From Gammaproteobacteria bacterium (GTDB lineage Bacteria; Pseudomonadota; Gammaproteobacteria; Pseudomonadales; Pseudohongiellaceae), in assembly GCA_002714195.1 (NCBI GenBank), contig PAWK01000072.1:1815-16749 (forward strand): DNA of 14,935 nt, in the 5' to 3' direction. The notes beneath the pieces were generated by a model. It saw only the letters and a program-made list of their open reading frames with translations, searched no databases and was not told where the DNA came from. The stretch's first letter is position 1; each line of letters begins with the position of its first letter. This document shows positions 1 through 14,935 of this stretch, piece after piece. Position numbers and translations under genes: made by a program.

Positions 1-782
1 GTAATAGAAATTTTTTCATCACTCATTGCAAAGCCCATTATATTTCTTGCAACTTCTTTGACATCAGTGTCTTTATGAATGCTCTTCTCGGTTGTGAGTT
101 CGACTGATTCAAATCTATGCAGAGGAAGATATGTGAATTTTTCTGTTCTATTTTCGAAAGAACAGATTAAGTATGAGACCCTGCCACGATACACAAGACC
201 GCAAGGATGCAAAACATAACTGCTCGCTTCTGTTTTAGTTTTAGATTTGTATAAGGCCTTTATCACTTTTCCCTGCCAAAGTGATGCTTGTATTTTCTCA
301 AGTATTCCTTCCCTTATATTTGCTGGCTCAAGGTTAAATCCTTCATTGAGCGTCAGAACCTTCTTTTTCCAGTTTTTCAACCTTGCATCGGTTTGTTTTT
401 GTTGCAGAATAATTTCAGCTTCCTTTAAATACGGCGCAATTGGATCAAGCGCACCGGGCGGGAGAATTGGATTGAGGTAGTCTTTTGCAAGCTGCAAGCA
501 GACTGCCTCCGTCGGACTCATCGCTGAATCTTTTGCTACTCCTTTAGGAAGTTTATAGCCATACGGCTTCATCCGGTCAATGACATATATCCTTTCAGGA
601 AATTGTTCTGGCAAGCTTTGCATATCCCTTAAAACAGTTCTCTCAGATATATCAAAGCCCAAGTCTATTAGTTTGTTATGAATCTGTTTTGAAGTCAGAG
701 GTATCTGACCCATCATTCGAATAATGGCTTGCGTTCTCTTTACTGCTTCAAAGTGATTTGGCCTTGTTTTCTTTCTATTCAT
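1..782 (-). CDS. HTH-WYL transcriptional regulator (C-terminus cut by window edge)
   Basis: Reading the reverse strand from the ATG at 782-780 gives about 260 codons with no stop, running off the left edge. Residues about 15-60 look like a DeoR-type winged helix: an isoleucine-rich first helix, then ISERTVLRDMQSL (45-57), the usual recognition-helix signature of this family. Residues about 168-230 match a WYL domain: a strand ending LHPCGLVYRGRVSYLIC (191-207) followed by YLPLHRFESVEL (218-229). The eponymous W-Y-L is S-Y-L here. The rest of the C-terminal (WCX-like) extension lies outside the window. WYL proteins bind DNA as dimers and sense nucleic-acid or nucleotide ligands, and several (BrxR/CapW type) repress phage-defence operons. 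It is divergent from the MoxR gene across 70 bases, so it probably controls itself and the plus-strand operon. Family assignment is firm; the regulated target is inferred. Confidence 0.88.
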   Translation of the reverse strand, partial: MNRKKTRPNHFEAVKRTQAIIRMMGQIPLTSKQIHNKLIDLGFDISERTVLRDMQSLPEQFPERIYVIDRMKPYGYKLPKGVAKDSAMSPTEAVCLQLAKDYLNPILPPGALDPIAPYLKEAEIILQQKQTDARLKNWKKKVLTLNEGFNLEPANIREGILEKIQASLWQGKVIKALYKSKTKTEASSYVLHPCGLVYRGRVSYLICSFENRTEKFTYLPLHRFESVELTTEKSIHKDTDVKEVARNIMGFAMSDEKISI

Positions 783-852: not shown

Positions 853-1860
853 ATGAAGAAATTAAATATTAGAAATTTAGATAAATTCTTAAATCAGATC
901 ATAAGAAATAAAATTCAATCCTCGCTTATGATTTGGGGCGCTCCCGGTATTGGAAAATCATCCGTTGTTGAATCAGTCGCACATTCAAATGATCTCGAGC
1001 TCATCGATCTCAGGATCAGTCAGTTGGCACCTACTGATCTGAGAGGCATTCCCGTTCCCAAGGATGACAAGGCATTTTGGTTCCCTCCAGAGTTTCTTCC
1101 TACAGAAGGAAAGGGCATATTATTTTTAGATGAAATCAATATGGCGCCTCCAGCTGTTCAAGGCATTGCACAACAGTTAATTCTTGATCGGAAAGTAGGT
1201 TCTTACGAGGTGCCTGAAGATTGGTTTATATGGAGTGCCGGGAATAGAAAGAGCGATCATGCCGCAGTTTTTGATATGCCCTCACCTCTTGCAAATCGTT
1301 TCATTCATTTAGAGGTAAGCACATCATTGGATGAGTTTAAAAAATATGCGCTTGCCAATAAGATAGATGATCGTATTATCTCATTTTTAAATTTTAGGCC
1401 AAAGCTATTACATAAGATTGATAAAAACAGTCCTTCATGGCCATCGCCCAGGAGCTGGGACATAGCTGACAAATTGCTAAAGGCGGATTTAACCGTGGAC
1501 CCAGCAATCGGATCAGGAGTTGGAAGTGAATTTAGAAGCTTCTGTAAAGTCTATAGTGAATTGCCTAAAATTGAGCCCATCCTTAATGGAAAGAGTAAAC
1601 CAAAGTTTCCCAAAGATATTTCTTCGCAGTACGCATTGACTTGCGCTCTATCTGTGAGATCAAAGAATATGGATCATTATAAAAATGCATTCCTATACCT
1701 TTCTGAGAAAGCATCTATGGAATGGTTGAACCAATGTGCGTATGAGGCAAGCTCTATATGTGCAGCGAATGGGGACTCTAAAGCACTGATTGATGTGGTC
1801 ACACAAAACAAAGAGCTTATGAAAGTCGCTGAAAGACTCACCAATTTATTAAATGCATGA
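853..1860 (+). CDS. MoxR-family AAA+ ATPase
   Basis: A 335-residue protein with a complete AAA+ core: Walker A GAPGIGKSS (29-37, K35), Walker B ILFLDEIN (89-96, D93/E94), a sensor-1 asparagine in SAGNR (N131), an arginine-finger region LANRF (147-151) and a sensor-2-like PSPRSW (197-202). The segment ISQLAPTDLRGIPVP (55-69) is typical of the MoxR branch that pairs with DUF2201/vWA proteins. MoxR ATPases are thought to act as ATP-driven chaperones that remodel partners through a vWA protein, and the next gene encodes such a protein, overlapping by 8 bases. The start follows a weak AAAAG purine run; no better start lies upstream. It is the first gene of the run. Family is sure; substrate unknown, possibly one of the downstream unknown proteins. 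Confidence 0.93.
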   Translation: MKKLNIRNLDKFLNQIIRNKIQSSLMIWGAPGIGKSSVVESVAHSNDLELIDLRISQLAPTDLRGIPVPKDDKAFWFPPEFLPTEGKGILFLDEINMAPPAVQGIAQQLILDRKVGSYEVPEDWFIWSAGNRKSDHAAVFDMPSPLANRFIHLEVSTSLDEFKKYALANKIDDRIISFLNFRPKLLHKIDKNSPSWPSPRSWDIADKLLKADLTVDPAIGSGVGSEFRSFCKVYSELPKIEPILNGKSKPKFPKDISSQYALTCALSVRSKNMDHYKNAFLYLSEKASMEWLNQCAYEASSICAANGDSKALIDVVTQNKELMKVAERLTNLLNA

Positions 1861-3007
1861 CATGGACTTTGGAGATACAGTTACAAAGTCGGTTCTTCAG
1901 GTTCGAAGGGAATGCGCATTCTTTGGAGCGTTGATGTTGTTTGCGAGGATCATCCCATCAAAAAGCATAGAGACAGCAGCGACCGATGGTAAGACGATAT
2001 TTATTAACCAAGACTATTTAGCCTCTCTAAGCAGCAGCGAGCAGAATGCACTATTGCTGCATGAGGTTCTGCATATGGCACTTTTGCATTGCATCAGAAT
2101 AGGGGGAAGGGACCGACACATTTGGAATATTGCCGCAGATATTGTGGTCAATGGCTTGATTCGAATGAATACCTCTTTTCAATTACCGAATGGTGCAATC
2201 ATTGATGATGAGTTTAAAGATGAGTCGGCAGAGGAAATTTATGAAGCACTTTTGAAGAATAGAGAAAAAATAAAACTATCAATGCCAGACATCATTGAGT
2301 TCGATGAAGAAAATGATGATTTCAATACCAAAAAAATGAACACAGAAGAAATCGAGGGTTACTGGAAAGATGCTATTCAAGTTGTAGAAAACACTGTCAA
2401 TAATGATTCAAATGGATCAGTTCAAGGCAACCTTCCAGCGGGTCTTTCAAGTGAAATAAAAAATATTCTTGAACCCGAAGTCGATTGGAGGCATGCCCTT
2501 TGGAAATACGTTGGCAAAACAAATTCTGACTTTGACGATCTGGACAGGAGATTTATATATAAGGGTCTTTACCTCGAGGGCTTGCTTACAGACGGATTGG
2601 AAATTTTTGTTTGCATCGATACCAGTGGCTCTGTTAGTGATCAACTCTTGAGTCAGTTTGCAGGAGAGTTGAAAGGAATCTTGTCTTCCTACCCTCATGT
2701 CAAATGCAAACTTTATTATGCCGATACAGATTTAGTTGGCCCATATGAAATCGATCATATTGATAAACTACCTCCGGCAAAAGGCAGAGGAGGGACCAGT
2801 TTTGTTCCTTTCTTTAATGCTTTATCTAAATCCGATGGAACATTCTCCGAAGTAAATAGGGCAGCTGTATATTTCACAGATGGATTTGGTGATTTCCCAA
2901 AAAAAGAACCTGACAATCCCACGATGTGGCTTGTTCCGTCAGATGGCCTAAAGTCAAAAGATTTCCCATTTGGGGATGTGATAAGAATCAGTACTGAAAA
3001 TTGGTAG
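1853..3007 (+). CDS. DUF2201-type protein: metallopeptidase-like domain plus vWA domain
   Basis: A 384-residue protein. The N-terminal part has ALLLHEVLHMALLH (66-79), an HExxH zinc-protease motif (H70, E71, H74), followed by WNIAADIVVNG (91-101) as in the DUF2201 N-terminal domain, where the aspartate (D96) may be the third ligand. A charged linker (about 140-195) leads to a vWA domain with all MIDAS elements: DTSGS (256-260), GGTSF with T315, and FTDGFGD with D343. The pairing of MoxR with a vWA partner is well known; the vWA protein typically links the ATPase to its substrate. The intact HExxH suggests that proteolysis is possible, but activity of this domain is not established. The start is ATG 1853 (8-base overlap with the MoxR gene) or ATG 1862 (one base after its stop); neither has a clear Shine-Dalgarno, so translational coupling is likely. 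Confidence 0.9.
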   Translation: MHDMDFGDTVTKSVLQVRRECAFFGALMLFARIIPSKSIETAATDGKTIFINQDYLASLSSSEQNALLLHEVLHMALLHCIRIGGRDRHIWNIAADIVVNGLIRMNTSFQLPNGAIIDDEFKDESAEEIYEALLKNREKIKLSMPDIIEFDEENDDFNTKKMNTEEIEGYWKDAIQVVENTVNNDSNGSVQGNLPAGLSSEIKNILEPEVDWRHALWKYVGKTNSDFDDLDRRFIYKGLYLEGLLTDGLEIFVCIDTSGSVSDQLLSQFAGELKGILSSYPHVKCKLYYADTDLVGPYEIDHIDKLPPAKGRGGTSFVPFFNALSKSDGTFSEVNRAAVYFTDGFGDFPKKEPDNPTMWLVPSDGLKSKDFPFGDVIRISTENW

Positions 3008-3009
3008 GA

Positions 3010-4452
3010 ATGATGAAAAAAAAACAAGAACAATTAAATAAGGTCCTATCTCTATTGAATGTCAATGTATTTGAGTTGATGGATCTCACACTTGAAACAT
3101 TTGGTCATCACTTGATTCATGAGGAGGGAGTTCAAGGATGCAGAAACAATATTAATGACTTAACTTTGGAGCAAAAGAAAGAACTCTATTCGAAGCTCTC
3201 GCCTCTTTTTTCAACTCCATTGAGTGCCGATAATTATATTGAATACAGGGAGGTGTTTCGATTTGCATCCGTTCTACACTGTGCACTTCCTTACGATCAC
3301 CAAAGGACAGAAGAGCACTCGGATTATTTTCATACATTATCCAGTTTTGATCATAGTCAAATTGACCAAGACAGCATGAAGGATGGCAGATACAACATAA
3401 GAGGTTATGAGGAATATAACATATCATCTAGGGATGCATTTGATTGCGTCTATTCTAATTCAATGCCATGGCATAAATTTCGTTTGGGATTTTCTGAATT
3501 ATTTGAAAAGGACCGACCTCTTGTGACAGAATCCCAGCTTCCAATTTGTGATTACTTAACAAAGACATCACTCGAAGATTATTTCAAATCAGAACTCAGA
3601 AAAATAGAAAATGATCTTGTCAGCGGTGACTATCATTACAATATGCAAAGGCAACTGGAAGATATCTTCATCAGTGAAGCATTTGATAAAGATTTTCTGA
3701 TTGACTCATTCGTAGAGCTCTTTCTTAGTGATTTCACATCTATACCTCACCATATGCATGATGCATTTGGCCTTAAATCGTATTATCACAAAACACATGG
3801 AGATGATCTTCATCCTTTGTTGCAATTGTTTGAATCAGAGACCTTCACAAGAAAGTTAAGAGACAGATTGTCAAGGGGGTTAGTCCTTGGTTGTAGAAAC
3901 ACAAAACGTTTTATTAAAGTTAATTTTGATGAACTTAATAATCTTTCTTTCTTTGCTTCTGTTTTGAGTGAATTCAAGACAATTTCATCAGACGACTTAG
4001 ACCGAGAGATCAATCACATGTCTAAGCAATCAGACATTCGTGAGCATTTAAATAACTTCGATACCGCCTTAATGATTGCAAGTGAAACTTATAGATTGGA
4101 GCGATTGGCAAAGAAAAAACCAAAAGAAGCAATGAGTGAAAGAAGAAAATTTGTCAGAGAATTAGTTAGGAAGTTTAACGATCCTGAGGAAAAATGGCCG
4201 GATTATAGATTGCAAAATAGGATATATAATTACTGTGTTCTCCAAAAACATCTTGATCATGTTTATGCAGACAGAAGGTCTCCAATTCCTGATTATTCAT
4301 CTGATTCCAGAGAGCCTTATGAACTACTAATTTCAGATAAAGAAGTTGAATTCACTGATGATGAAGTAGGTTATAACTTCACACAAATATTTGAGTTCAT
4401 TCAGAGATTCATTAAGGAAGAAAATAAAGATAATTATGAAGTATGGCATTAG
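3010..4452 (+). CDS. Unknown protein, first partner of the MoxR/vWA module
   Basis: About 480 residues that I do not recognise. It appears soluble and largely helical, rich in charged residues, with no signal peptide, membrane segment or nucleotide-binding motif visible. The most distinctive part is the basic helical stretch RRKFVRELVRKF (about 375-386), followed by an aromatic segment and a proline/serine linker PIPDYSSDS (about 423-431). It starts just after the vWA gene stop (3005-3007). ATG 3010 or 3013 is preferred over the TTG at 3001, because TAGGA (3005-3009) can serve 3013. It ends in a 10-base overlap with the next gene, so it is cotranscribed and probably coupled. Position directly after the MoxR/vWA pair suggests a substrate or scaffold of that machine; this is inference only. 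Confidence 0.8.
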   Translation: MMKKKQEQLNKVLSLLNVNVFELMDLTLETFGHHLIHEEGVQGCRNNINDLTLEQKKELYSKLSPLFSTPLSADNYIEYREVFRFASVLHCALPYDHQRTEEHSDYFHTLSSFDHSQIDQDSMKDGRYNIRGYEEYNISSRDAFDCVYSNSMPWHKFRLGFSELFEKDRPLVTESQLPICDYLTKTSLEDYFKSELRKIENDLVSGDYHYNMQRQLEDIFISEAFDKDFLIDSFVELFLSDFTSIPHHMHDAFGLKSYYHKTHGDDLHPLLQLFESETFTRKLRDRLSRGLVLGCRNTKRFIKVNFDELNNLSFFASVLSEFKTISSDDLDREINHMSKQSDIREHLNNFDTALMIASETYRLERLAKKKPKEAMSERRKFVRELVRKFNDPEEKWPDYRLQNRIYNYCVLQKHLDHVYADRRSPIPDYSSDSREPYELLISDKEVEFTDDEVGYNFTQIFEFIQRFIKEENKDNYEVWH

Positions 4453-5816
4453 TAATCAAAAATAATATTACTGCATTTGATAGCAGTATTTTTCTAAAAT
4501 TCGACTCAATTCCTCGTGAAAATGATTTGAGAGAAATGATTAAGGATTGTTGCTCAAAACATCATGATGAATCAGGTGGCCAGCGACCCAATATTGCATT
4601 GGCATTATTAAGACAGCAGATAAAACTGAGAGTTAAGAATAATTCAGATGTTGCAAATGCTTTAAGAGAATTTGTAATAACATTCAGCCAATCTGAAATC
4701 GAGGGGCTCTTTTCACTTGCTCGTCCTGCATTCGATGAAATGCAATATGAGATCCTTAGATATTATGAGGATTTTGAGTCTTTCATTGATTTTTTTGATC
4801 CCAGTTTGATTAAAGATAAATCTAAGCTGGAAGCCTTTCTCATTGATCTTCTGACTGATATTTGGGGGGAAGCTAATTGGTTTGAGTTAATTAGACATTT
4901 AATCAGTATTAAATCTAAAAAAACAGAAGAAATAGTTGCCAATACGATAAAAGACGTTGAAAGATTCAGAGGAAATCTGGCGGAAGATTATTTTAGAATC
5001 AATTTTTATGAAGATGTGTTTCATCTTTGCAAAAAGCACGATTATAAGGATGCCATGGCCGTTCTTTTTAATGAGTTGGGCTCATACTATTTTTATGCAA
5101 ATGGTATCTATACTGAATCTTTACCGAACTCTAAAGACGATACTATGTTTTGGCATGGAAGTTATGCTAAAGATTTTGAAGCTGGATATTTTTCAGAATT
5201 TAAAGAAGCATTTTCCAAAGATAAAAAATATGAATATTCCATTAATTTCAATAAGGCATGGTTTTCTGGGAATGCAAAAACTCAAGAGATGATAGAGACA
5301 ATCGAAAAGCATAATTCAAAGATTAAAGATGAGCATTACGAAGGTTTTTTAGAATTCGGTCGGCTGCATAATATTTCAGAAAATGATTTTGTTAATCATT
5401 TCTATCATCATCTTTTTAGTAATGAGGGTTTCAGCAGAATGAGCCAAGATTATCAAGTTCAATTTTTAGAGAGTATTCAAGAATTTATAGAGAGCTTGAT
5501 TGCTGATGATGTGGAAATTCCATTAGATATGGCATATGAGATTTTATCAAAAGAGTATCTTAAAGGTCTCCATCCAATGATTTATGGAACGATAGGGGAT
5601 CACAATAAAGACCCCATTGCATTGATGAAAAGAATTGTTTTAGCCATATATCTTGGAGAAGAGTACAAGGATTACTCCAAGCTGCTTATTGGCCAAATAA
5701 ATCAACTTGGTGCAAAGGAGAAAGGATATTTTAAAGAGATGTTTCTGACGCAAGGAGCTGGCATCAGGAGTACTGGGGTTATGAACCGATTTTATTTGGA
5801 TAGTGTTGATGATTAA
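4443..5816 (+). CDS. Unknown protein, second partner of the MoxR/vWA module
   Basis: 457 residues, unrecognised. The sequence is almost wholly helix-like, with many aromatic and acidic residues (for example YYEDFESFIDFFDPS about 100-114 and LLTDIWGEANWFELIRHL about 132-149) and no membrane segment, signal peptide, P-loop or nuclease motif. The regular alternation of short amphipathic helices would fit an alpha-helical-repeat or solenoid scaffold, but I see no clear repeat period. ATG 4443 overlaps the end of the previous gene by 10 bases, and the next start lies 9 bases after its stop, placing it firmly inside the operon. It could be a recognition or scaffold subunit for the MoxR/vWA pair. 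Function unknown. Confidence 0.8.
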   Translation: MALVIKNNITAFDSSIFLKFDSIPRENDLREMIKDCCSKHHDESGGQRPNIALALLRQQIKLRVKNNSDVANALREFVITFSQSEIEGLFSLARPAFDEMQYEILRYYEDFESFIDFFDPSLIKDKSKLEAFLIDLLTDIWGEANWFELIRHLISIKSKKTEEIVANTIKDVERFRGNLAEDYFRINFYEDVFHLCKKHDYKDAMAVLFNELGSYYFYANGIYTESLPNSKDDTMFWHGSYAKDFEAGYFSEFKEAFSKDKKYEYSINFNKAWFSGNAKTQEMIETIEKHNSKIKDEHYEGFLEFGRLHNISENDFVNHFYHHLFSNEGFSRMSQDYQVQFLESIQEFIESLIADDVEIPLDMAYEILSKEYLKGLHPMIYGTIGDHNKDPIALMKRIVLAIYLGEEYKDYSKLLIGQINQLGAKEKGYFKEMFLTQGAGIRSTGVMNRFYLDSVDD

Positions 5817-5824
5817 ATCTTTTG

Positions 5825-6892
5825 ATGCGTCATAAACTGGCATTGGGTCAACATATATTTGATTTTACTTTAGAGACGATAATGATAGATAAGTACATTT
5901 ATGACGTAAGCATTGAGGATGTCATGTCCATTCCAAAAGATTGGAGCGATTGTATTGAATTTATGACAGATTCCTTATATTGGGAAGAAGGACTTCCCAA
6001 AAGGTACGAATATTTAATAGATGATTTAACTTTTCTAAGATATGCAATGGATTATATGAATGGGATTCAATTTGACTACGGGCCCCCACTCGATGAGGCT
6101 TTTATTCTAGAAATGAACAAAAATTTTCCATACATTACAGAATATCGTCAATTCAGAGCCATTCCACTCGCCTGGTGGCGTCAAAATGATGATTTTGTTA
6201 AAGAACTTGTAAGAAGCAATTACGATTCATACAGAAGCGCTCCAAAAAAAGAACGCAAGGATAAATCATATGCACTTCGCGCAGCAACCATCAATGGAGC
6301 GATTTTAGAATTTTCTCCCAGAAATATCAGGAATGATTTGGAAATAGCGACCGCTGCACTTCGATCCAATCCTTTTTCCATTCATTTTCTAACAAAGCAA
6401 ATGAAATCAAAGATGGACACTGATTTGATTAGTCATTGTTTGAAGATTTCAAAAGGGGATAAGCATGAGATTTACAAAATAGAAGATATGGAAGTGATTG
6501 CAAATATTTTTGTGAGCTTAATGAATTGCGGTCGTTCAGTGCATGCATCAAAGTTGAATTGGAAAAATCTTCCTCGAAAAAATTGGGATGCTTTTGACCG
6601 AAGGACATTACCTCACCTTATTGACCAAGATTTTCTTCTTTATGCTTTAAGCATCAACCCAGAATTGATCTCATACTTTAGGCTAGGATATTTAGATCGT
6701 TTTGGCATTATGTTAATCGAATTATCATCTTTAAACCCTTTCTTAAATAGAGAGCAAATCCAAAACGCCCAAAATTTACTATTCAATGAATATATTGAAA
6801 AAACAAAGGAACTACCATTTGTTCAGCCATTTAAGATTATCGGTCATGCAAGACGCATGTGTGATATCGAGGACAGAACTAATATCAGCTAA
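5825..6892 (+). CDS. Unknown protein with DUF4116-like repeat, third partner
   Basis: About 355 residues, mostly helical. Residues about 148-189 hold the pattern RAATINGAILEFSPRNIRND followed by LEIATAALRSNPFSIHFL. This resembles the DUF4116 repeat (a run of 'ND.E.A.AAL..NP' units of unknown function). A second weaker LSINPELISYF unit sits near 273-283 and may be another copy. Conserved-looking aromatic stretches include LAWWRQND (115-122). The ATG at 5825 is taken as the start; ATG 5882, with AGAGA about six bases upstream, is an alternative and would remove 19 residues. It is the last gene before the 96-base gap, so it closes the first gene block. DUF4116 assignment is by pattern recognition only; biochemical role unknown. 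Confidence 0.75.
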   Translation: MRHKLALGQHIFDFTLETIMIDKYIYDVSIEDVMSIPKDWSDCIEFMTDSLYWEEGLPKRYEYLIDDLTFLRYAMDYMNGIQFDYGPPLDEAFILEMNKNFPYITEYRQFRAIPLAWWRQNDDFVKELVRSNYDSYRSAPKKERKDKSYALRAATINGAILEFSPRNIRNDLEIATAALRSNPFSIHFLTKQMKSKMDTDLISHCLKISKGDKHEIYKIEDMEVIANIFVSLMNCGRSVHASKLNWKNLPRKNWDAFDRRTLPHLIDQDFLLYALSINPELISYFRLGYLDRFGIMLIELSSLNPFLNREQIQNAQNLLFNEYIEKTKELPFVQPFKIIGHARRMCDIEDRTNIS

Positions 6893-6988
6893 TTGGTGGT
6901 AATCGTATGATTCGAATGATGATATTTAGCTTTATGAAATAACTCTTAGGGCCTATTATTTAGTTAACTTCAAAAAATTAGATTAAAG
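6893..6988 (+). promoter_or_regulatory. Longest gap in the plus-strand run; weak internal promoter candidate
   Basis: These 96 bases separate the MoxR/vWA block from the TerB/MORC block. TATTAT (6954-6959) could be a -10, with the poor -35 TTTATG (6931-6936) 17 bases upstream. An 8-base palindrome ATTCGAAT lies at 6910-6917. I find no hairpin followed by a T-run, so transcription from the upstream promoter probably reads through. Any internal promoter is only a possibility. Confidence 0.25.
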
Positions 6989-7378
6989 ATGATGAAATAT
7001 AAAATTAAGAAAGATCAGGTTCAAGATATCTTGGCCATTGTATTATGCATAGCTTCCAAAGATGGGATAATTTCACAAACGGAATTGACTACGTTAAAAA
7101 AAGAATTCAGTAATATCTTTACTCTTAAATTAACAGATAAGCAAAATAATCAGGCACTAGAAGATTTTTTCTCATCAAACGATCAGATTGAGGATTATCT
7201 TGAGAAAATTGAGGATCATGAGCTCAGAATACCCATCCTTAGACTCAGTCTAATCAGCGCAGCATCTGATGGTTTTGACATCAAAGAAAACATTGGATAC
7301 CAAAAGGCACTTATGATTTGGAATTTGTCTAATGAAGAGGATGTATTAAAAAGAGAGGATTCATCAGACAGTGAGTAA
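6989..7378 (+). CDS. Small TerB-like protein
   Basis: A 129-residue helical protein with the twofold signature of TerB domains. IASKDGIISQTELTTLKKEF (21-40) has an acidic D-G...E loop between helices (D25, G26, E32), and ISAASDGFDIKEN (89-101) repeats it (D94, G95, E100). In TerB these loops can bind divalent metal. TerB-like domains occur in tellurite-resistance and stress complexes and in several phage-defence systems, commonly fused to or next to ATPases. The start is ATG 6989 or the adjacent ATG 6992; no strong Shine-Dalgarno is seen. The last 8 bases overlap the GTG start of the MORC ATPase, so the two are coupled and probably made in fixed proportion. The acidic, serine-rich tail (after about 115) looks disordered. 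A metal-sensing or adaptor role is inferred. Confidence 0.7.
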   Translation: MMKYKIKKDQVQDILAIVLCIASKDGIISQTELTTLKKEFSNIFTLKLTDKQNNQALEDFFSSNDQIEDYLEKIEDHELRIPILRLSLISAASDGFDIKENIGYQKALMIWNLSNEEDVLKREDSSDSE

Positions 7379-8780
7379 AATTGTTGAAGCACCACCAAAT
7401 GTAGTAGGAGAACTGAAAACTCTTATGAAAATTGGATACACGTTAGAAACTTCTATCGCCGATATTATCGATAATTCAATTGCGGCTAAATCAAAAAAGA
7501 TAGAAATAGAAATACCATATAGCACAGAAGATGGAGAACCTTTTATTTCTATAAAAGATGATGGAAAAGGCATGACCCAAGAAGAATTAATATCCAATAT
7601 GGTCATCGGATGTAAGGATCCAGATGATGAAAGAGAGCCTGGAGATCTTGGACGATTTGGATCAGGAATGAAAACCGCTAGCTTTTCTCAAGCAAAGAAA
7701 TTAACTGTGATCACAAAAGCAAAAGGTAAAAAGTTATGTGGTGCGATTTGGGATATCGATAGAATTATCAAAGATAATAAATGGAATTTAGAGGTTTTAT
7801 CAACAAAAGAAATATTGGAAATTAAGCATCTTAATCTGTCTAACAAGGATGAATCAGGGACTCAAATTATTTGGCAAAAATTGGAAAGATATTCACAAGA
7901 AAAAGATCAAAAAAATAATGGTGTCGCAAGAATCTTAACTGACGATATAAATAAGGTAAAAGATAGTATTTCACTTTTATTTCACCGTTATATTAAGGTC
8001 GAAAAAGACGATAAAAACGATAAAAAGTGCAAAATTAAACAAATCAAAGTATTTATGAATGATGTTCCAATTGAAGCCACCGATCCTTACATGAGAGATT
8101 TTGATGGCCACGAGGAGGATGAAATAAGACAGCTATTTATGTCAGAAGGAACAATAAATGTAAAAATTCATAATATACCTCATCCATCGAAATTAACTGC
8201 TGAACAAAAAAGAAAGGTTGGTGGTGAGAAAGGCTATAACACTGGGCAAGGTTTCTACATTTACCGAGATAAAAGGTTAATGATACCAGGAGATTGGCTC
8301 GGTACCCACGCCGCCGGTATACTTGGTAATAGAGCGAGAGTAAGAGTCGATATTCCTTCCACAATGGACCATGTTTATGGAACCGATGTTAAGAAAGCTG
8401 ATTTTCAGTTTCCTCTAGCATTCAGACAGCATCTCTCTAGATTAGGCAAAGTAGCAAAGGAAGTCGGTAAACGTGACTATGTCAGGCGAGGCAGGAATTC
8501 AATTGATGCAAATACAGTTTGGAAAATCATCCAGAATCAAGATGAAGATACGGTTTCATATAGAGTAAAATCTGATAATGATGAAGTGCGAGGCATCATG
8601 CAAAGATTGGATAAAGAAGGTCGAAGTAGATTAGCGAAGTTTTTTATTCAACTTGGAAATGAGTTGCCATTGGATAACATACTTTTTTTCATGGCGAATG
8701 ATAGAGACAAGATCACAGAATATAATGATTGGGAAGAGTTACTCAAAGAGAGCCTGCAAAGAGAGCCTGAATCCAATTAA
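7371..8780 (+). CDS. MORC-type GHKL ATPase
   Basis: A 469-residue protein with a full GHKL ATP-binding fold of the prokaryotic MORC branch: N-box IADIIDNSIAAK (29-40, N35), G1 DDGKGM (63-68), the G2 lid DLGRFGSGMKTASFS (92-106, typical of MORC) and G3 GTQIIW (163-168). An S5-type domain follows with FMNDVPIEATDPYM (228-241), GFYIYRDKRLMIPGDWLG (294-311), and a KKADF segment (341-345) whose lysine probably contacts the ATP phosphate. The C-terminal ~100 residues are helical and unassigned. GHKL/MORC ATPases close around DNA as ATP-driven dimers. The GTG start at 7371 is chosen because the first in-frame ATG (residue 19) would remove conserved sequence; AGAGGA (7354-7359) lies 11 bases upstream. 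In related clusters it sits with Z1, PD-(D/E)XK and AIPR genes, as here. Confidence 0.9.
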   Translation: MSKIVEAPPNVVGELKTLMKIGYTLETSIADIIDNSIAAKSKKIEIEIPYSTEDGEPFISIKDDGKGMTQEELISNMVIGCKDPDDEREPGDLGRFGSGMKTASFSQAKKLTVITKAKGKKLCGAIWDIDRIIKDNKWNLEVLSTKEILEIKHLNLSNKDESGTQIIWQKLERYSQEKDQKNNGVARILTDDINKVKDSISLLFHRYIKVEKDDKNDKKCKIKQIKVFMNDVPIEATDPYMRDFDGHEEDEIRQLFMSEGTINVKIHNIPHPSKLTAEQKRKVGGEKGYNTGQGFYIYRDKRLMIPGDWLGTHAAGILGNRARVRVDIPSTMDHVYGTDVKKADFQFPLAFRQHLSRLGKVAKEVGKRDYVRRGRNSIDANTVWKIIQNQDEDTVSYRVKSDNDEVRGIMQRLDKEGRSRLAKFFIQLGNELPLDNILFFMANDRDKITEYNDWEELLKESLQREPESN

Positions 8781-8790
8781 AGACATGAAA

Positions 8791-8795
8791 AAGGA
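8791..8795 (+). promoter_or_regulatory. Shine-Dalgarno site of the Z1-domain gene
   Basis: AAGGA lies nine bases before the ATG at 8805, in the 24-base gap after the MORC gene. It supports 8805 as the start and gives this gene its own ribosome entry rather than reliance on coupling. Confidence 0.65.
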
Positions 8796-8804
8796 TCATT
8801 AATT

Positions 8805-11732
8805 ATGGATAAAAAAGTAATGATAGAAAAGTTGATCTGGTTGTGTAGTCAAGAACTAAGATTATACAAAGAATCAGGCACGTCGATTGAAAGAAAAGTT
8901 ATTTTGGAAACAATTGACGATGCAATTAAAAGGGCTGATGAGAACATTAGTGATTTTGATGGATCAACGCTGACCGAAGAGGATATTGGTGATATAGAAT
9001 TTGAATTAGAGTCCCGATTTTCTGTCAGCATCGGTTCGCAAACAATCATTATTTCTGATCCAGGAATTGATAGAGGTTGGCTGAATTCAATTACAGATCC
9101 AGAAAGAACTGAATTTGTCAGGCATAAGGATTATGAAGATTTTCTTCACAGTATTGGAAGAGAATACGATGTAGTTAATGAGAACACCAAAATCATTGAT
9201 CAGATTCTTGACCTAAGTGGTGATCCACTCCGAGAAGGGTCATGGGAAACACGCGGACTTGTCATGGGAAATGTTCAATCGGGTAAAACCCAAAATTATA
9301 TTGGTTTGATCAATAAGGCAGCAGATTTGGGTTATCAAGCCATTATTATTTTAGGCGGCCATATGAATGAGCTTAGGAATCAGACGCAATTCAGAGTTGA
9401 TCAGGGTTTTGTAGGTCAAGATACAAGAAAAACAAACGCAACAACGATAGGAGTTGGTATTGACAGAGACTTCACAAAATATGGCTCACATCAATTCACA
9501 AAGGGAGAGAATGATTTTTCAAGAACCATAGCCAATCGTGTTGCCTTTGATCTCAATGGCATTTCTTTTCCTGCTGTTTTTGTAGTCAAGAAAAATACAA
9601 GTATTTTGGAGAGTCTTTACACATGGATTAAAGAGAAGCATATGCTGAGTCCTGAGGACGGAAGGCTGCTCGATAAGCCTCTTTTATTTATTGATGATGA
9701 GGCAGATTATGCATCTGTGAATACATTGTCTGAGCAACAAGCCAATGAAGATAGGAAGGTTACGAAGACGAACCAATTGATCAGAGATATTCTTGGCCTA
9801 TTTAAGAGAAATACCTATATCGGTTATACAGCAACGCCTTTTGCCAATATATTCATTGATCCAGAAAATGACAATGACATGCTTTCTCATAATCTCTACC
9901 CAAAAGACTTTATGGTTAAGGTTCCAACGCCTCTTGCCTATCACGGGCAAGATTTTTTCTTTGGAGATCACTCTGGTGTTCCAGACCATGTATCCCCTTT
10001 GATCAATATCAACGTCACTGATCATGAACTAAAGTTGCTTCCAATCGCAGGACAAAAGAAGGACATGGCTGAAGATTTAATGCATGAGCTGTCCGCAGAT
10101 CTAAAAGAAGCGATTAGGGTATTTTTTATTGCTACTGCTATTAGGTTTTTTAGAGGTGCAGATAAGCAACATCACACCATGATCATTAATATCTCGCACC
10201 TTGCAGATGTTCAAAATAAACTAAGAGCTCTCACAGAGCCCTATATAAATGAAATCATTGGTGGAATTAAGGCAACAGAGAGGCAGGATCCAGTCAGAGC
10301 CTGCAAGCATCCTGAGGTCAGAGATCTCCATGAAACTTTTGAAAAGATTTACCCTCATCTAGATGAGCAATGGGAGGACCTCTTTCCACAACTTCAATTT
10401 GTAGCCAACAAAATTGGCCTAAAAGCAATTAACAGTCATCCGGATAGTCAAGATAATCTTGATTATGAAACCTTTAGTGAGACAGGAGTAGTAGCGATTG
10501 TTATAGGAGGAATAAAGCTCTCAAGAGGCATGACGTTAGAAGGGCTCTCGGTCACTTATTTTGCCAGAAGCTCTAAAATGTATGACACGCTCATGCAAAT
10601 GTGTAGATGGTTTGGTTATAGAAAAGGCTATGATGATTTATGCCGAGTTTATCTAACCTCTGATACCATCGATTGGTATTCACATATCGCAGAAGCAATA
10701 GATGAGCTGTATGAAGAGCTGCACTTAATGAATCGTTCAAATAAAACTCCAAGTGATTTCGGTCTTAAAGTTAGGGATCATCCCAGTTCACTAATTGTAA
10801 CAGCAAAAACAAAAATGAGATCGGCTACAGAAAGTACCCATTCTGTGAGTTTATGGGGACAGAGGCAAAGACGCTTCAGATGGGATGCAAATGATGAAGA
10901 ATCATTCAAAAGAGGTTTCAATGTAACCGAAAGATTTATCACTAAGCTTAAAGATGACGAGTCGATAGAAAATAATCATGTACCGAACAAGGATGAAATA
11001 AAAATCTTTAAAAATGTAAAGCATAGCGATGTGATCAAATACATTGAAGACATGAATATGATAGAAGATGAGATTGGTGACATAGGACTTATTTCACACA
11101 TCAATGAAATTAGCAGTTTGGTTGATAAGGACTTTCAGGTTGCTTTCAGAACTCTCTCGAAACCATCTAGCGACTGGTTTTTGAATGAGATGAGTGAGGA
11201 GGGGATAGAATTTAAGCAGGAATATGAATTTGCTGGAGAAAAAATCATAGTCCCATCCAGAACGGTAGAAAAAATTAATAATATCTATAAGGCGCCAAGA
11301 ACTGAAATGGGCCAAGGCGGCGATGAATCATGGTTTTTATCTCCCGATGAGATAGCAAGAATAAAAGAAGAAATAATGAACAGAACAGGAAAACAGCCTG
11401 ACAATAAGCATTATTTGAGATCAATTGAAAGAGACTTCCCGGTTTTGATTATTTATCCTTTTAACCTTATTTTAATGGATCCATATAAGCAACCTGCTGC
11501 ACAGAGAATAAAAGGAGAATACTCTCTCAAAAGCATCAGCAATAAACCTATGTTTGGATATGCGATTTCATTCCCAATCGACGACCCTGAATTGCTCAAT
11601 ATAGATCCCACAGCGTTAAGAGCAAAGGTAAATAAAAGCAAGAGGGTTTATATGGTTGGTCAAGTATATCGCCAGTTGCAAATGTTCGGCGATATAGATT
11701 GTGAAGAAGATGAAGAGGATGCGTATGAGTGA
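8805..11732 (+). CDS. Z1-domain superfamily-II-like ATPase
   Basis: A 975-residue protein with P-loop motifs in Z1-family order: Walker A GNVQSGKTQNY (155-165, K161/T162), Walker B LLFIDDEADYAS (293-304), motif III YTATPFANIF (341-350), and the Z1 hallmark GGIKLSRGMTLEGLSVTYF (568-586) leading to QMCRWFGYR (598-606), equivalent to helicase motif VI with its arginine fingers. About 145 N-terminal residues and about 330 C-terminal residues flank the core without a recognised fold; the C-terminus is very acidic (CEEDEEDAYE). Z1 proteins are predicted DNA-translocating or remodelling ATPases of MORC/REase/AIPR systems, though often labelled 'endonuclease' in databases; I see no nuclease motif here. 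The stop overlaps the next start (ATGAGTGA). Length and motifs suggest an intact, functional gene. Confidence 0.93.
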   Translation: MDKKVMIEKLIWLCSQELRLYKESGTSIERKVILETIDDAIKRADENISDFDGSTLTEEDIGDIEFELESRFSVSIGSQTIIISDPGIDRGWLNSITDPERTEFVRHKDYEDFLHSIGREYDVVNENTKIIDQILDLSGDPLREGSWETRGLVMGNVQSGKTQNYIGLINKAADLGYQAIIILGGHMNELRNQTQFRVDQGFVGQDTRKTNATTIGVGIDRDFTKYGSHQFTKGENDFSRTIANRVAFDLNGISFPAVFVVKKNTSILESLYTWIKEKHMLSPEDGRLLDKPLLFIDDEADYASVNTLSEQQANEDRKVTKTNQLIRDILGLFKRNTYIGYTATPFANIFIDPENDNDMLSHNLYPKDFMVKVPTPLAYHGQDFFFGDHSGVPDHVSPLININVTDHELKLLPIAGQKKDMAEDLMHELSADLKEAIRVFFIATAIRFFRGADKQHHTMIINISHLADVQNKLRALTEPYINEIIGGIKATERQDPVRACKHPEVRDLHETFEKIYPHLDEQWEDLFPQLQFVANKIGLKAINSHPDSQDNLDYETFSETGVVAIVIGGIKLSRGMTLEGLSVTYFARSSKMYDTLMQMCRWFGYRKGYDDLCRVYLTSDTIDWYSHIAEAIDELYEELHLMNRSNKTPSDFGLKVRDHPSSLIVTAKTKMRSATESTHSVSLWGQRQRRFRWDANDEESFKRGFNVTERFITKLKDDESIENNHVPNKDEIKIFKNVKHSDVIKYIEDMNMIEDEIGDIGLISHINEISSLVDKDFQVAFRTLSKPSSDWFLNEMSEEGIEFKQEYEFAGEKIIVPSRTVEKINNIYKAPRTEMGQGGDESWFLSPDEIARIKEEIMNRTGKQPDNKHYLRSIERDFPVLIIYPFNLILMDPYKQPAAQRIKGEYSLKSISNKPMFGYAISFPIDDPELLNIDPTALRAKVNKSKRVYMVGQVYRQLQMFGDIDCEEDEEDAYE
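11714..11719 (+). promoter_or_regulatory. Shine-Dalgarno fixing the PD-(D/E)XK gene start
   Basis: AGAGGA ends five bases before ATG 11725, inside the last codons of the Z1 gene. This favours 11725 over the longer in-frame starts GTG 11701, ATG 11710 and ATG 11719, which have no comparable site. The site doubles as acidic codons of the Z1 C-terminus. Confidence 0.6.
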
Positions 11733-12690
11733 TTTCAGAAATGATCCTTGGGAGCATATAAATGAGCCCATATACCCAGATGTACAAAGGCTATTTCGAC
11801 AAGATGATCGTTTTTGGGTCTCAGTAAATGAGAAGAATGAAAAATTATTTGTGATCAATGTCCCCTTGAGAATCAATGAAGAGATTCCAACAAATTTAAA
11901 TGTGATCGAAGTAGATATTGTCGAATTTGACGCTGGAAACACTCGATTCCTCTGCATATTGAAAGATGATAGCTTGTTAGAAATTTTCACTCTAATGATT
12001 CAGGATATTGCATACAAATGCAAAGATTTCTCGGATTCAGAAGTTATCAATAAGGCGATTGATAGATTATTCACAGAGTGGACACAATTATTAAAGCCAT
12101 CGCGAGCTGGAATTGGTAGATCAAGACAAATTGGACTCTGGGGAGAACTGTTTATTTTGAATGAAAAAATAAAGCAAGCCTACCCAGTCTCAGAGGCCAT
12201 AAATTTCTGGATAGGACCAGAAAACAAGAAACAAGACTTTACAGTTAATAATCTAGCTCTTGAAGTTAAAACTACGTTAGCCGGTTCGAGTCCATCAATA
12301 AAAATTACCTCACTTGAGCAACTGGAAAAGATCACAGATAAGCTTTTTTTGATTCAATTATTTATTAATCAAGCAAGCAGTGAAGATGCAGACTCAATGA
12401 GCCTTCAGGATATTTATGATCAAATTTGGAATTCAATCGATGAAAATGATCCAAATACAAAAACTAATTTTATGCTGAAGGCCGGAAAAATTATGAATAA
12501 GGCGAAAAAATCTGAGAAAAATGAAAAATTTTTACACCAATCATATGATCTTTATAACGTCGATGATTTATTTCCATCTATATCTTCATCAAACTTACCC
12601 GATCCAATTCGAAATGTGAAATATGAAATCGACGCATCAAAAATTAGGCATTTACTCTCTTCAGAAAAATTAGAAGACATTCTGACGTAG
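11725..12690 (+). CDS. PD-(D/E)XK nuclease-like protein (DUF4420-type)
   Basis: 321 residues from the preferred ATG. The nuclease signature is SRQIGLWGELFIL (133-145, E141), then KKQDF (168-172, D171) and LALEVKTT (177-184, with E180-V-K182), giving the E...D...ExK arrangement of the PD-(D/E)XK restriction-endonuclease fold. This matches the 'PD-(D/E)XK motif protein' family that accompanies Z1 and AIPR genes. All catalytic residues appear present, so DNA cleavage is plausible. The N-terminal ~125 residues and C-terminal ~110 residues are unassigned and may mediate complex formation. The gene overlaps the Z1 gene by 8 bases, consistent with a tightly associated complex in which the Z1 ATPase positions or drives the nuclease. 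Substrate specificity cannot be read from the sequence. Confidence 0.87.
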   Translation: MSDFRNDPWEHINEPIYPDVQRLFRQDDRFWVSVNEKNEKLFVINVPLRINEEIPTNLNVIEVDIVEFDAGNTRFLCILKDDSLLEIFTLMIQDIAYKCKDFSDSEVINKAIDRLFTEWTQLLKPSRAGIGRSRQIGLWGELFILNEKIKQAYPVSEAINFWIGPENKKQDFTVNNLALEVKTTLAGSSPSIKITSLEQLEKITDKLFLIQLFINQASSEDADSMSLQDIYDQIWNSIDENDPNTKTNFMLKAGKIMNKAKKSEKNEKFLHQSYDLYNVDDLFPSISSSNLPDPIRNVKYEIDASKIRHLLSSEKLEDILT

Positions 12691-12709
12691 GATAGTTAGC
12701 TAGAAAAGC

Positions 12710-14845
12710 ATGAGTGAATTAATAGAATACCACCAACAATTACTAGATCAGTCAAATATCAGTGCTGAAGCAAATGGTTCAATACCTGCATGGGAGTTCT
12801 ACTCTTTCGCAACTTCTCTTCTTGCTGATGAAGGAATTATTGATGATATTTCTGAAAAGGGCAGTTTTCATCATTACAATCCTAACTATGGCACAAAACT
12901 TGATGGTTGGGGATGGAATGAATTAGAAAAAACATTGTATGGAATTGCAGTTAATTTCAATGAAGACCCGAAGAAAATTAAGCCCATTAACAAATCAGAC
13001 TTAGAGAAGATAGGGAAACGAGTTGCCAAGTTATTTAATTCAATTGATAACGAAAACTTTAGAAATAGCATTGGATATGATGATGCAGCAAGGTTGGATG
13101 AAATAAGAGAGCATTTTGAGCATGCGATCAAATTTAGGATTGTGATCCTTACTAATCAGCAAACCACTGCAAGAATGAAAAACACAGGATTTTCAATTGA
13201 AAATATCCTAGATAAAAAAACAAGAATCGAGGTCTGGGATATTGAAAAAATTATGTCATTGGATCTTGGCGGGACTGATTCTGCACCAGTTGAGATAGAT
13301 TTTGTTGAACTCTTTGGATCTGGCATTGAAGCCTTACAGGCAGATGTAAATCCCAACGTCAAATCCTATTTGTGCGTACTTCCTGGAGAATATCTTTCCA
13401 AGATCTATGACATATACGGTCAAAGAATACTTCAAAGCAATGTCAGAAGTTTCTTAAATTTTACAATGGGCACAAACAAAGGCATGAGGAATACATTGCT
13501 TTTAGAACCTGAAAAGTTTTTTTCATACAATAACGGCCTCACTGTCACTGCATCGCATCATAAGATAAAGAAAGAGGGCGGGAAGCTTCTTATTACTGAT
13601 TTGCATAACATGCAAATTGTGAATGGTGGGCAAACAACTGGTGCGATCTACTTTTCCCCGCAAGATAAGGGCGGACCAAGATCAGATGGAAAGAATTATC
13701 TATGGAAGGACATTGATCTCAGTAAAGTTTTTGTCCAGATGAAACTGACAATTATTGATGATGAAGAGCAATCTCCAGTTATGACTCAGAACATATCAAG
13801 ATACTCAAATACTCAAACAAAGGTAAACGAGGATGATTTGATCTCAAATGAGCCACTTCACTTAAGAATTGAGAAAATATCAAGAAAAACATATGTCAGG
13901 CCTGATGATGGAGTTCCAACAAAATGGTTCTATGAAAGATCGAGAGGTCAGTACAACGTTTTATTGCGTAGACAAAAGACCGATGCAAAGAAGAGGACAT
14001 TTCAACAGGAATATCCAAAAAAGCAGCTTTTTAAAAAAACAGATATGATGAAGTACGAAAATACATGGCGAATGAACCCACATAGTGTCGTCAAAGGGCC
14101 GACTTTTAATTCAAAATCTTTAAACCCATTATTGAAAAAACAATGGGAAAATAATGATAACGACTTCAGGGAGCCTTTTTTTTATGACCTGATTTCCAAA
14201 GCGATTCTTTTTAAGGATCTGGACGATGCACTTGGAAGTTGGCTGAGGAAAAATCAATTAACAGGTCACAAAGCGCAAACTATAACATACTCGATTGCTT
14301 ATTTAAGACGATTGCTAATATTGAATAATCAAAGCATTAATTTAAAAAGAATCTATGACAATCAAAGCGTATCAGATGGACTGTTATCTGAAATGCTTAA
14401 GTTGGCTATTCATGTCAGAGAGACTCTTATGGATGAAGCTATTAAGGCAGGTGTTGGTAATGCAGATACCTTTGCAAAGAGAAAACAATGCTGGGATACA
14501 ATCAGAAACATGCCATATGATCTTTCTATATCAGACGAAGATTTATTAAATATGCAACAAATTGAGGATAATGAACATGAAAAAGATCAATTAGCTTCAG
14601 CAGGAAAGCATATCGATATAATTACCCAAGTCTTTGACATCAATCAAAATGAATGGGTGGAACTGTCAGATTATTTGCAAAATGAGGAAAATCTTCCTTA
14701 TGACCATAAAAAAGTTCAGATAGTGCAAAAGTGCATTCTAATGCATCAAACGCAAGGTGTGAAAGCCGTAACAGAGAAGCAGGCAAAAGTAGCTTTAGAG
14801 ATTCTAGAAGATGCAATTAAAAAAGATTTTAATTATGTCAGGTGA
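12710..14845 (+). CDS. AIPR-family (abortive infection phage resistance) protein
   Basis: 711 residues. The AIPR core is unmistakable: ILQSNVRSFLNFTMG (240-254), EKFFSYNNGLTVTA (268-281) and MQIVNGGQTTGA (301-312), followed by VFVQMKLTII (about 335-345) and TQNISRYSNTQTKVNEDD (about 361-378). The N-terminal ~230 residues may form a separate domain, including KFRIVILTN (141-149) and RIEVWDIEKI (172-181), reminiscent of a degraded restriction-endonuclease-like fold, but I see no convincing catalytic set. The C-terminal third is helical. AIPR proteins are linked to phage resistance and recur beside Z1 and MORC genes; their molecular activity is not settled. ATG 12710 is 19 bases after the nuclease gene, with only a weak AGAAAA ahead of it. 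Family is certain; role as effector or DNA-binding subunit is inferred. Confidence 0.92.
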   Translation: MSELIEYHQQLLDQSNISAEANGSIPAWEFYSFATSLLADEGIIDDISEKGSFHHYNPNYGTKLDGWGWNELEKTLYGIAVNFNEDPKKIKPINKSDLEKIGKRVAKLFNSIDNENFRNSIGYDDAARLDEIREHFEHAIKFRIVILTNQQTTARMKNTGFSIENILDKKTRIEVWDIEKIMSLDLGGTDSAPVEIDFVELFGSGIEALQADVNPNVKSYLCVLPGEYLSKIYDIYGQRILQSNVRSFLNFTMGTNKGMRNTLLLEPEKFFSYNNGLTVTASHHKIKKEGGKLLITDLHNMQIVNGGQTTGAIYFSPQDKGGPRSDGKNYLWKDIDLSKVFVQMKLTIIDDEEQSPVMTQNISRYSNTQTKVNEDDLISNEPLHLRIEKISRKTYVRPDDGVPTKWFYERSRGQYNVLLRRQKTDAKKRTFQQEYPKKQLFKKTDMMKYENTWRMNPHSVVKGPTFNSKSLNPLLKKQWENNDNDFREPFFYDLISKAILFKDLDDALGSWLRKNQLTGHKAQTITYSIAYLRRLLILNNQSINLKRIYDNQSVSDGLLSEMLKLAIHVRETLMDEAIKAGVGNADTFAKRKQCWDTIRNMPYDLSISDEDLLNMQQIEDNEHEKDQLASAGKHIDIITQVFDINQNEWVELSDYLQNEENLPYDHKKVQIVQKCILMHQTQGVKAVTEKQAKVALEILEDAIKKDFNYVR

Positions 14846-14875
14846 TTCATGTGCCATTTAGGGTAATCTAATTTA

Positions 14876-14935
14876 ATGACAAAGTTAGGGGATCTTTTAA
14901 CAAAAAGGCAAAAAGATGAGCTTTATGAGTCTTTA
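14876..14935 (+). CDS. Start of a further reading frame, cut by window edge
   Basis: An ATG at 14876, 30 bases after the AIPR stop and about 12 bases after AGGG (14860-14863), opens 20 codons to the right edge without a stop (beginning MTKLGDLLTKRQKDELYESL). The spacing and strand fit continuation of the operon. Too little is visible to identify it. In related clusters a DNA methyltransferase, Vsr-like nuclease or helicase often stands beside AIPR, but nothing in these residues points to any of them. Confidence 0.5.
   Translation, partial: MTKLGDLLTKRQKDELYESL

Follow-up and report, generated by a model that had tools for sequence, protein, structure and literature searches.

Can a MoxR-vWA module act as a transferable regulator of DNA-targeting defense, replacing methylation as its safeguard? 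A locus that allows a direct test of this question lies in a 14,935-nucleotide stretch from a member of the Pseudohongiellaceae (GenBank assembly GCA_002714195.1, contig PAWK01000072.1, positions 1,815 to 16,749; hereafter the window, its contig being L003), in which a set of genes that we term module A adjoins a restriction-like cassette resembling the MZA system. It is a naturally occurring example of an open nuclease set whose linked methylase is apparently gone, beside a putative switch module that accompanies MZA and DISARM-like systems in other genomes. We tentatively favor, at somewhat under even odds, the reading that module A is a switch functionally coupled to the neighboring DNA-targeting cassette. 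Our observations comprise only the anatomy of the locus and its recurrence on few loci.

Two modules in one operon

By module A we mean a WYL/TerB_up side divergent from MoxR-DUF2201 (plus a third protein), and by the cassette TerBl-MzaB-C-D-E, where TerBl is the TerB-like protein of MZA cassettes. In the window, the WYL-domain regulator (WYL 1.5e-10, WCX 6.5e-15) occupies 1..782 of the minus strand with its first 260 codons, the full 338-residue protein being encoded at L003 1580-2596. Divergent from it, on the plus strand like all the genes that follow, is a MoxR-type AAA+ ATPase (853..1860; AAA_5 2.9e-8; motifs GAPGIGKS, FLDEIN and AGN), and next to this a DUF2201 protein (1853..3007; DUF2201_N 1.5e-29, DUF2201 2.7e-17, by motifs and alignment as well) with a zincin-like N-terminal part (HEVLHMALLH) and a vWA C-terminal part (DTSGS). 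Pfam matches, motifs and adjacency bear out the preliminary description, which had called these two genes a known type of pair.

The cassette begins 96 bp downstream of module A. After a leader (6926..6988), where DNA homology to its nearest relative sets in, come TerBl (6989..7378), an MzaB-like MORC/MutL-type GHKL ATPase (7371..8780; HATPase_c_3 3.3e-33), the gene between the MzaB-like and MzaD-like ones (8805..11732, the MzaC place in the cassette order), an MzaD-like PD-(D/E)XK protein of the DUF4420 family (11701..12690; PF14390 8.1e-55) and an MzaE-like AIPR protein (12710..14845; AIPR 1.4e-80, AIPR_N 1.4e-14). PADLOC finds homologues of MzaB, MzaC, MzaD and MzaE (5.2e-52, 9.9e-118, 1.4e-18 and 1.5e-62) together in this single operon, that is, the MZA set, so that the earlier assignment of the MORC, Z1, PD-(D/E)XK and AIPR genes to a known restriction-like system stands. 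None reaches its NCBIfam equivalog cut-off (218.5/850, 494.5/1500, 113.1/420 and 275.7/1050 bits); because all four scores fall far short, we file the cassette, judging by its sequence, as MZA-like rather than as the named equivalog. MZA was reportedly discovered by Gao et al. in 2020. The TerB-like leader protein matches no MzaA model of PADLOC or NCBIfam at E<=1, and mzaA is present in few relatives only of MZA-type systems (PMC9523054).

An alignment scan for MzaC relatives, with one genome per species, returned 65 MZA loci (L023-L087). The nearest, L023 (MzaC 93%; labelled Candidatus Neomarinimicrobiota), contains TerBl-MzaB-C-D-E and none of the window's first-half genes. In blastn, window 6926-14865 (L003 8740-16679) and L023 1482-9389 form a single match of 88.5% over 7954 columns, and since L003 and L023 have nothing else in common at E <= 0.01, the homologous block is sharply bordered, on the left within the 96-base gap and on the right 20 bases beyond the mzaE stop. 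The proposed composite operon is accordingly real in that a MoxR/DUF2201 half and an MZA-like half adjoin, but its second half is a separate block shared with a locus that has no first-half genes. DNA identity at this level between L023 and the window's assembly could come from a recent transfer, from kinship between the two, or from an error in binning. MzaE diverges most from L023 at residues 120-180 and from 540 on.

The missing methylase

In L023 a C5 cytosine methylase gene overlaps the mzaE stop. The window has in that frame only eight codons resembling the methylase start, an apparent 5' remnant (14842..14865) reaching to the right limit of homology, before an early end and then the gene TerB_down. 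A profile built on ten methylases from nine MZA loci matches 58 of the 65 loci, a raw count that includes those nine. As for the seven misses, fewer than 350 bases precede MzaC in L048 and L071, L072 measures 3.4 kb and L029 breaks off inside mzaC, while L065, L068 and L084 lack a match on longer stretches. The profile does not match L003, nor does PF00145 match the host assembly (G000, 85% complete; the control was positive in 10/14 genomes), though given that completeness the host may possess a methylase that is unlinked or belongs to another class. The cassette is thus, on sequence grounds, apparently without the linked methylase usual near such cassettes. Another genome of the same genus, G072, carries MZA together with a Dcm-type methylase (L021 10283-12237) and with what we take to be a Vsr-like gene, and gives no match to module A.

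The remnant, and the lack of a PF00145 match in the host assembly, would suit a decaying cassette whose genes are silent, useless or being lost after the methylase went. We hold this to be very improbable. All five cassette reading frames are open, the motifs sought in MzaB, MzaC and MzaD are all there, and the ratios of non-synonymous to synonymous substitution rates (dN/dS) against L023 lie at 0.08-0.16 (TerBl 0.12, MzaB 0.15, MzaC 0.14, MzaD 0.08, MzaE 0.16), pairwise averages over both lineages from which the period after methylase loss is not separable. With its frames open, the nuclease set appears to be under constraint.

Recurrence of module A

If the two modules were coupled, would the pairing be confined to the window? 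MoxR or DUF2201 is found at two of the 65 MZA loci, L026 (the MED1046 metagenome-assembled genome, G120) and L027 (SAR86 AG-913-G13, G121), where WYL-TerB_up is divergent from MoxR, DUF2201 and a DUF4116 protein (6e-19 and 2.8e-9). A DUF2201 search of the 203 genomes of G121's order yielded six genomes at E <= 1e-20. Five (G121, G120, G550, G641 and G696) reach E < 1e-120, and in every one of these WYL and TerB_up lie close to MoxR-DUF2201. Together with the window these make six module A loci, which form one group in the MoxR tree (support 100/99) and in the DUF2201 tree (92/99, not starred).

The clade keeps its own company. WYL and TerB-like genes of its own go with it in 6/6 loci, the WYL homologue close to MoxR with a 369-residue open reading frame (ORF) intervening in G550, and a third protein that is of DUF4116 type or resembles it occurs in 5/6: the proteins after DUF2201 in G641 and G696 resemble the DUF4116-type ones of G121 and G120, the window's DUF4116 is two genes further on, and no DUF4116-type protein was recognized in G550, where the extra ORF was examined on a fragment. 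In G120, and in the same arrangement in G696, module A adjoins TerB_up-Dcm-MZA; in G121, four ORFs and 5.7 kb separate TerB_up from TerBl; in G550, module A adjoins a DISARM-like set (DrmA 5e-180, DrmB 1e-79, C5 methylase 1.8e-47); and the contig of G641 stops 1.4 kb past TerB_up. The window is therefore not the sole junction of the two halves, since G120, G121 and G696 pair them as well.

Related TerB-like proteins on both sides

The two modules also share a small domain. HHalign aligns TerBl (12 sequences) with TerB_up (6 sequences) at 97.8% probability (E 9.9e-13); 7/12 TerBl proteins match Pfam TerB at E <= 1, and the best PDB sequence match of TerBl is, at a weak E of 0.036, the TerB-type protein 2ou3. 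This related domain on both sides would be the best hint of contact between module A and MZA. The TerB-like gene had been described as joining the halves; its protein is indeed homologous to the module-side TerB_up, but the gene belongs to the MZA cassette. Among relatives of the window's TerBl, 2/12 also show weak Sigma70_r1_1 matches (best 0.033), a likeness that may explain the sigma-factor label once given to mzaA.

TerB_down, which follows the cassette, starts at 14876..14935 and continues beyond the window (396 residues, L003 16690-17880; TerB 0.012). HHalign relates its N-terminal part to the TerB_up family (82.5%, E 9.8e-6), and no match to the TerBl family was found, a pattern that fits insertion of the MZA cassette into module A, if that was the direction of events.

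On the coupled reading, module A would act as a switch, MZA would act as effector, TerB proteins would link the one to the other, and in the window the switch would stand in place of methylation. A bolder version, which we think rather unlikely, is that a portable chaperone-driven switch (WYL, TerB, MoxR, zincin-vWA and helical sensors) docks onto unrelated restriction-like systems, onto MZA via TerB-type adaptors and onto DISARM-like sets, and that in the window it has assumed the self-protection once provided by the lost methylase, giving modification-independent restriction that is restrained by protein remodeling.

Coupled systems or island neighbors

Module A and MZA might almost as well be independent neighbors in a defense island, uncoupled, with one cassette here inserted into the operon of the other; to this we accord a chance only slightly lower than to coupling, likewise under even. 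Against such independence stand the homologous TerB-like proteins of the two modules and the position of module A beside a restriction-like system in 5/5 judgeable loci (window, G121, G120, G696, G550), three of which were found via the window or MzaC.

Much of the remaining evidence weighs on the other side, against coupling. MoxR and DUF2201 go unmatched in 63/65 MZA loci, several of which end at contig edges, and L023, the nearest MZA relative whose surroundings can be read, has no module A. TerBl is found by tblastn in 10/65 loci, L026 and L027 included, and 8 of these 10 are without module A; from these two counts it follows that neither MZA nor TerBl depends on module A. Sampling matters too: G121 and G120 were reached through MzaC, and G121's order was picked because of G121, while the three further module A genomes comprise one with MZA next to the module, one with a DISARM-like set there, and one that is cut. 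The seven DISARM-side proteins of G550 give no TerB match at E <= 0.01, so a link through TerB is no general feature. unkA and unkB, next to DUF2201 in the window, have no recognized function, and the averaging of dN/dS noted above belongs here as well. A shared island site holds module A in G121 (L095), G550 and G641, and MZA alone in L045; its flanking genes are, we take it, uvrB/purL-like, and islands at a common site beside uvrB could alone bring systems together.

The trees, in which long branches occur, can be read either way. In the MzaC tree, whose deep forks lack resolution, the window goes with L023 and G121 with L045, both without module A, and G120 pairs with G696; cassettes paired with module A thus occupy three places, in two of which the nearest cassettes lack it, and the four MZA pairings show three arrangements. 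Because of these positions and the differing gene arrangements, the loci are most simply read as three separate module A-MZA pairings plus one with a DISARM-like system. An old pairing from which module A was lost several times would suit the trees equally, and for this reason we lowered our confidence in coupling slightly, from only just under even. The earlier suggestion that, if the set is conserved, ATP-driven remodeling would control a DNA-targeting effector draws support from recurrent adjacency (MZA in G120 and G696, at a distance in G121, and DISARM-like in G550) and from the homologous TerB proteins, but most MZA loci do without module A.

Could module A instead be a general chaperone or maturation pair, near defense genes by accident? 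MoxR-DUF2201 pairs do occur on plasmids, chromosomes and phage contigs without MZA. With the same DUF2201 query, 117 relatives gave one other match < 1e-50 (G080, 42%; 8/117 at E <= 0.001, the window's own included) and 369 genomes of the class one (G145, 38%; 10/369 at E <= 1e-20, own included), with no MZA in the stretches read around the G080 and G145 loci. Among 28 MZA-bearing genomes searched (of 65), three have DUF2201 at < 1e-50: G120, G121 and G118, that of G118 lying on a 20-kb stretch that has no MZA. Pairs also lie on pSYSA and a Thermus plasmid, no MZA being in the stretch read, and of 233 viral MoxR loci the best 80 (L118-L197) include 72 that also encode DUF2201 in the stretch fetched. 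The MoxR-DUF2201 pair is not defense-specific; module A is set apart by its own clade plus WYL and TerB-like genes. These associated genes, and a defense system beside the clade in the five loci with readable flank, make an accidental chaperone pair very unlikely in our view. In the viral loci L118-L120, MoxR and DUF2201 are directly adjacent, with a presumably ThyX-like gene downstream.

Relation to known systems

MORC/SFII helicase/nuclease sets are predicted restriction systems with DNA looping (PMC2292703). From the third MORC operon type presented there (Iyer et al., 2008), and from MZA, the window differs in its TerB-like first gene, absent methylase and lack of an MzaA model match; from the Type II system of PMC9523054, in which a cytosine methylase is a core gene, it differs in having none and in its MoxR-vWA module. 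In G550, DrmA, DrmB and a C5 methylase replace MZA beside module A; DISARM is absent from the window.

MoxR-vWA pairs have been predicted to act as switches in which a third component does the sensing, and the merging of independent systems into larger neighborhoods is noted there in general terms (PMC7159879, PMC12839542). Module A resembles the ternary conflict systems described there in its adjacent MoxR and vWA and its further fast-evolving helical components, and differs in that the vWA lies behind a zincin-like DUF2201_N part and the partner is a DNA-targeting system. Unlike those systems, the window's DUF2201 protein has no variable effector domain C-terminal to vWA, the vWA match covering residues 252-379 of 384. 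VMAP, iSTAND, FtsH and beta-propeller domains were not recognized in unkA, unkB or unkC by Pfam scans (no VMAP profile was used). A literature search, largely without subscription journals, found no description of a combined module A and MZA, and no paper naming any two of DUF4116, DUF2201, TerB domain and MoxR.

Other genes of the locus

Of the three proteins once listed as unrecognized, unkC (5822..6892; 356 residues) turns out to have DUF4116 repeats (PF13475 3.6e-15, two stretches), leaving unkA (3001..4452; 483 residues) and unkB (4443..5816; 457 residues). Both are predicted to be all-helical (model predicted local distance difference test 58.5 and 74.4), fold searches suggest weak, generic helical matches only, and profile comparison finds no similarity between them. 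Each has nine relatives, one 99% identical, in a database of 5.8 billion proteins, the search reaching relatives with common short exact words only.

A sliding-clamp-like fragment at the contig's left end (L003 2-364, minus strand) is related (4.5e-6) to clamp-like genes near module A: one in G121 (L095 7842-8618, minus strand; DNA_pol3_beta_2 1.5e-5, under the Pfam cut-off) and its relatives in G550 and G641. Close to module A, 5/5 genomes of G121's order also have a gene for a Cas4/PDDEXK_1-type nuclease (L095 7004-7822, L096 1781-2506, G550 65240-66058, G641 24079-24897, G696 199527-200249); another such gene lies near an MZA that has no module A (L030 21096-21923). The MoxR-WYL gap of G121 and G641 contains the palindrome CGACA-N5-TGTCG, a candidate WYL operator.
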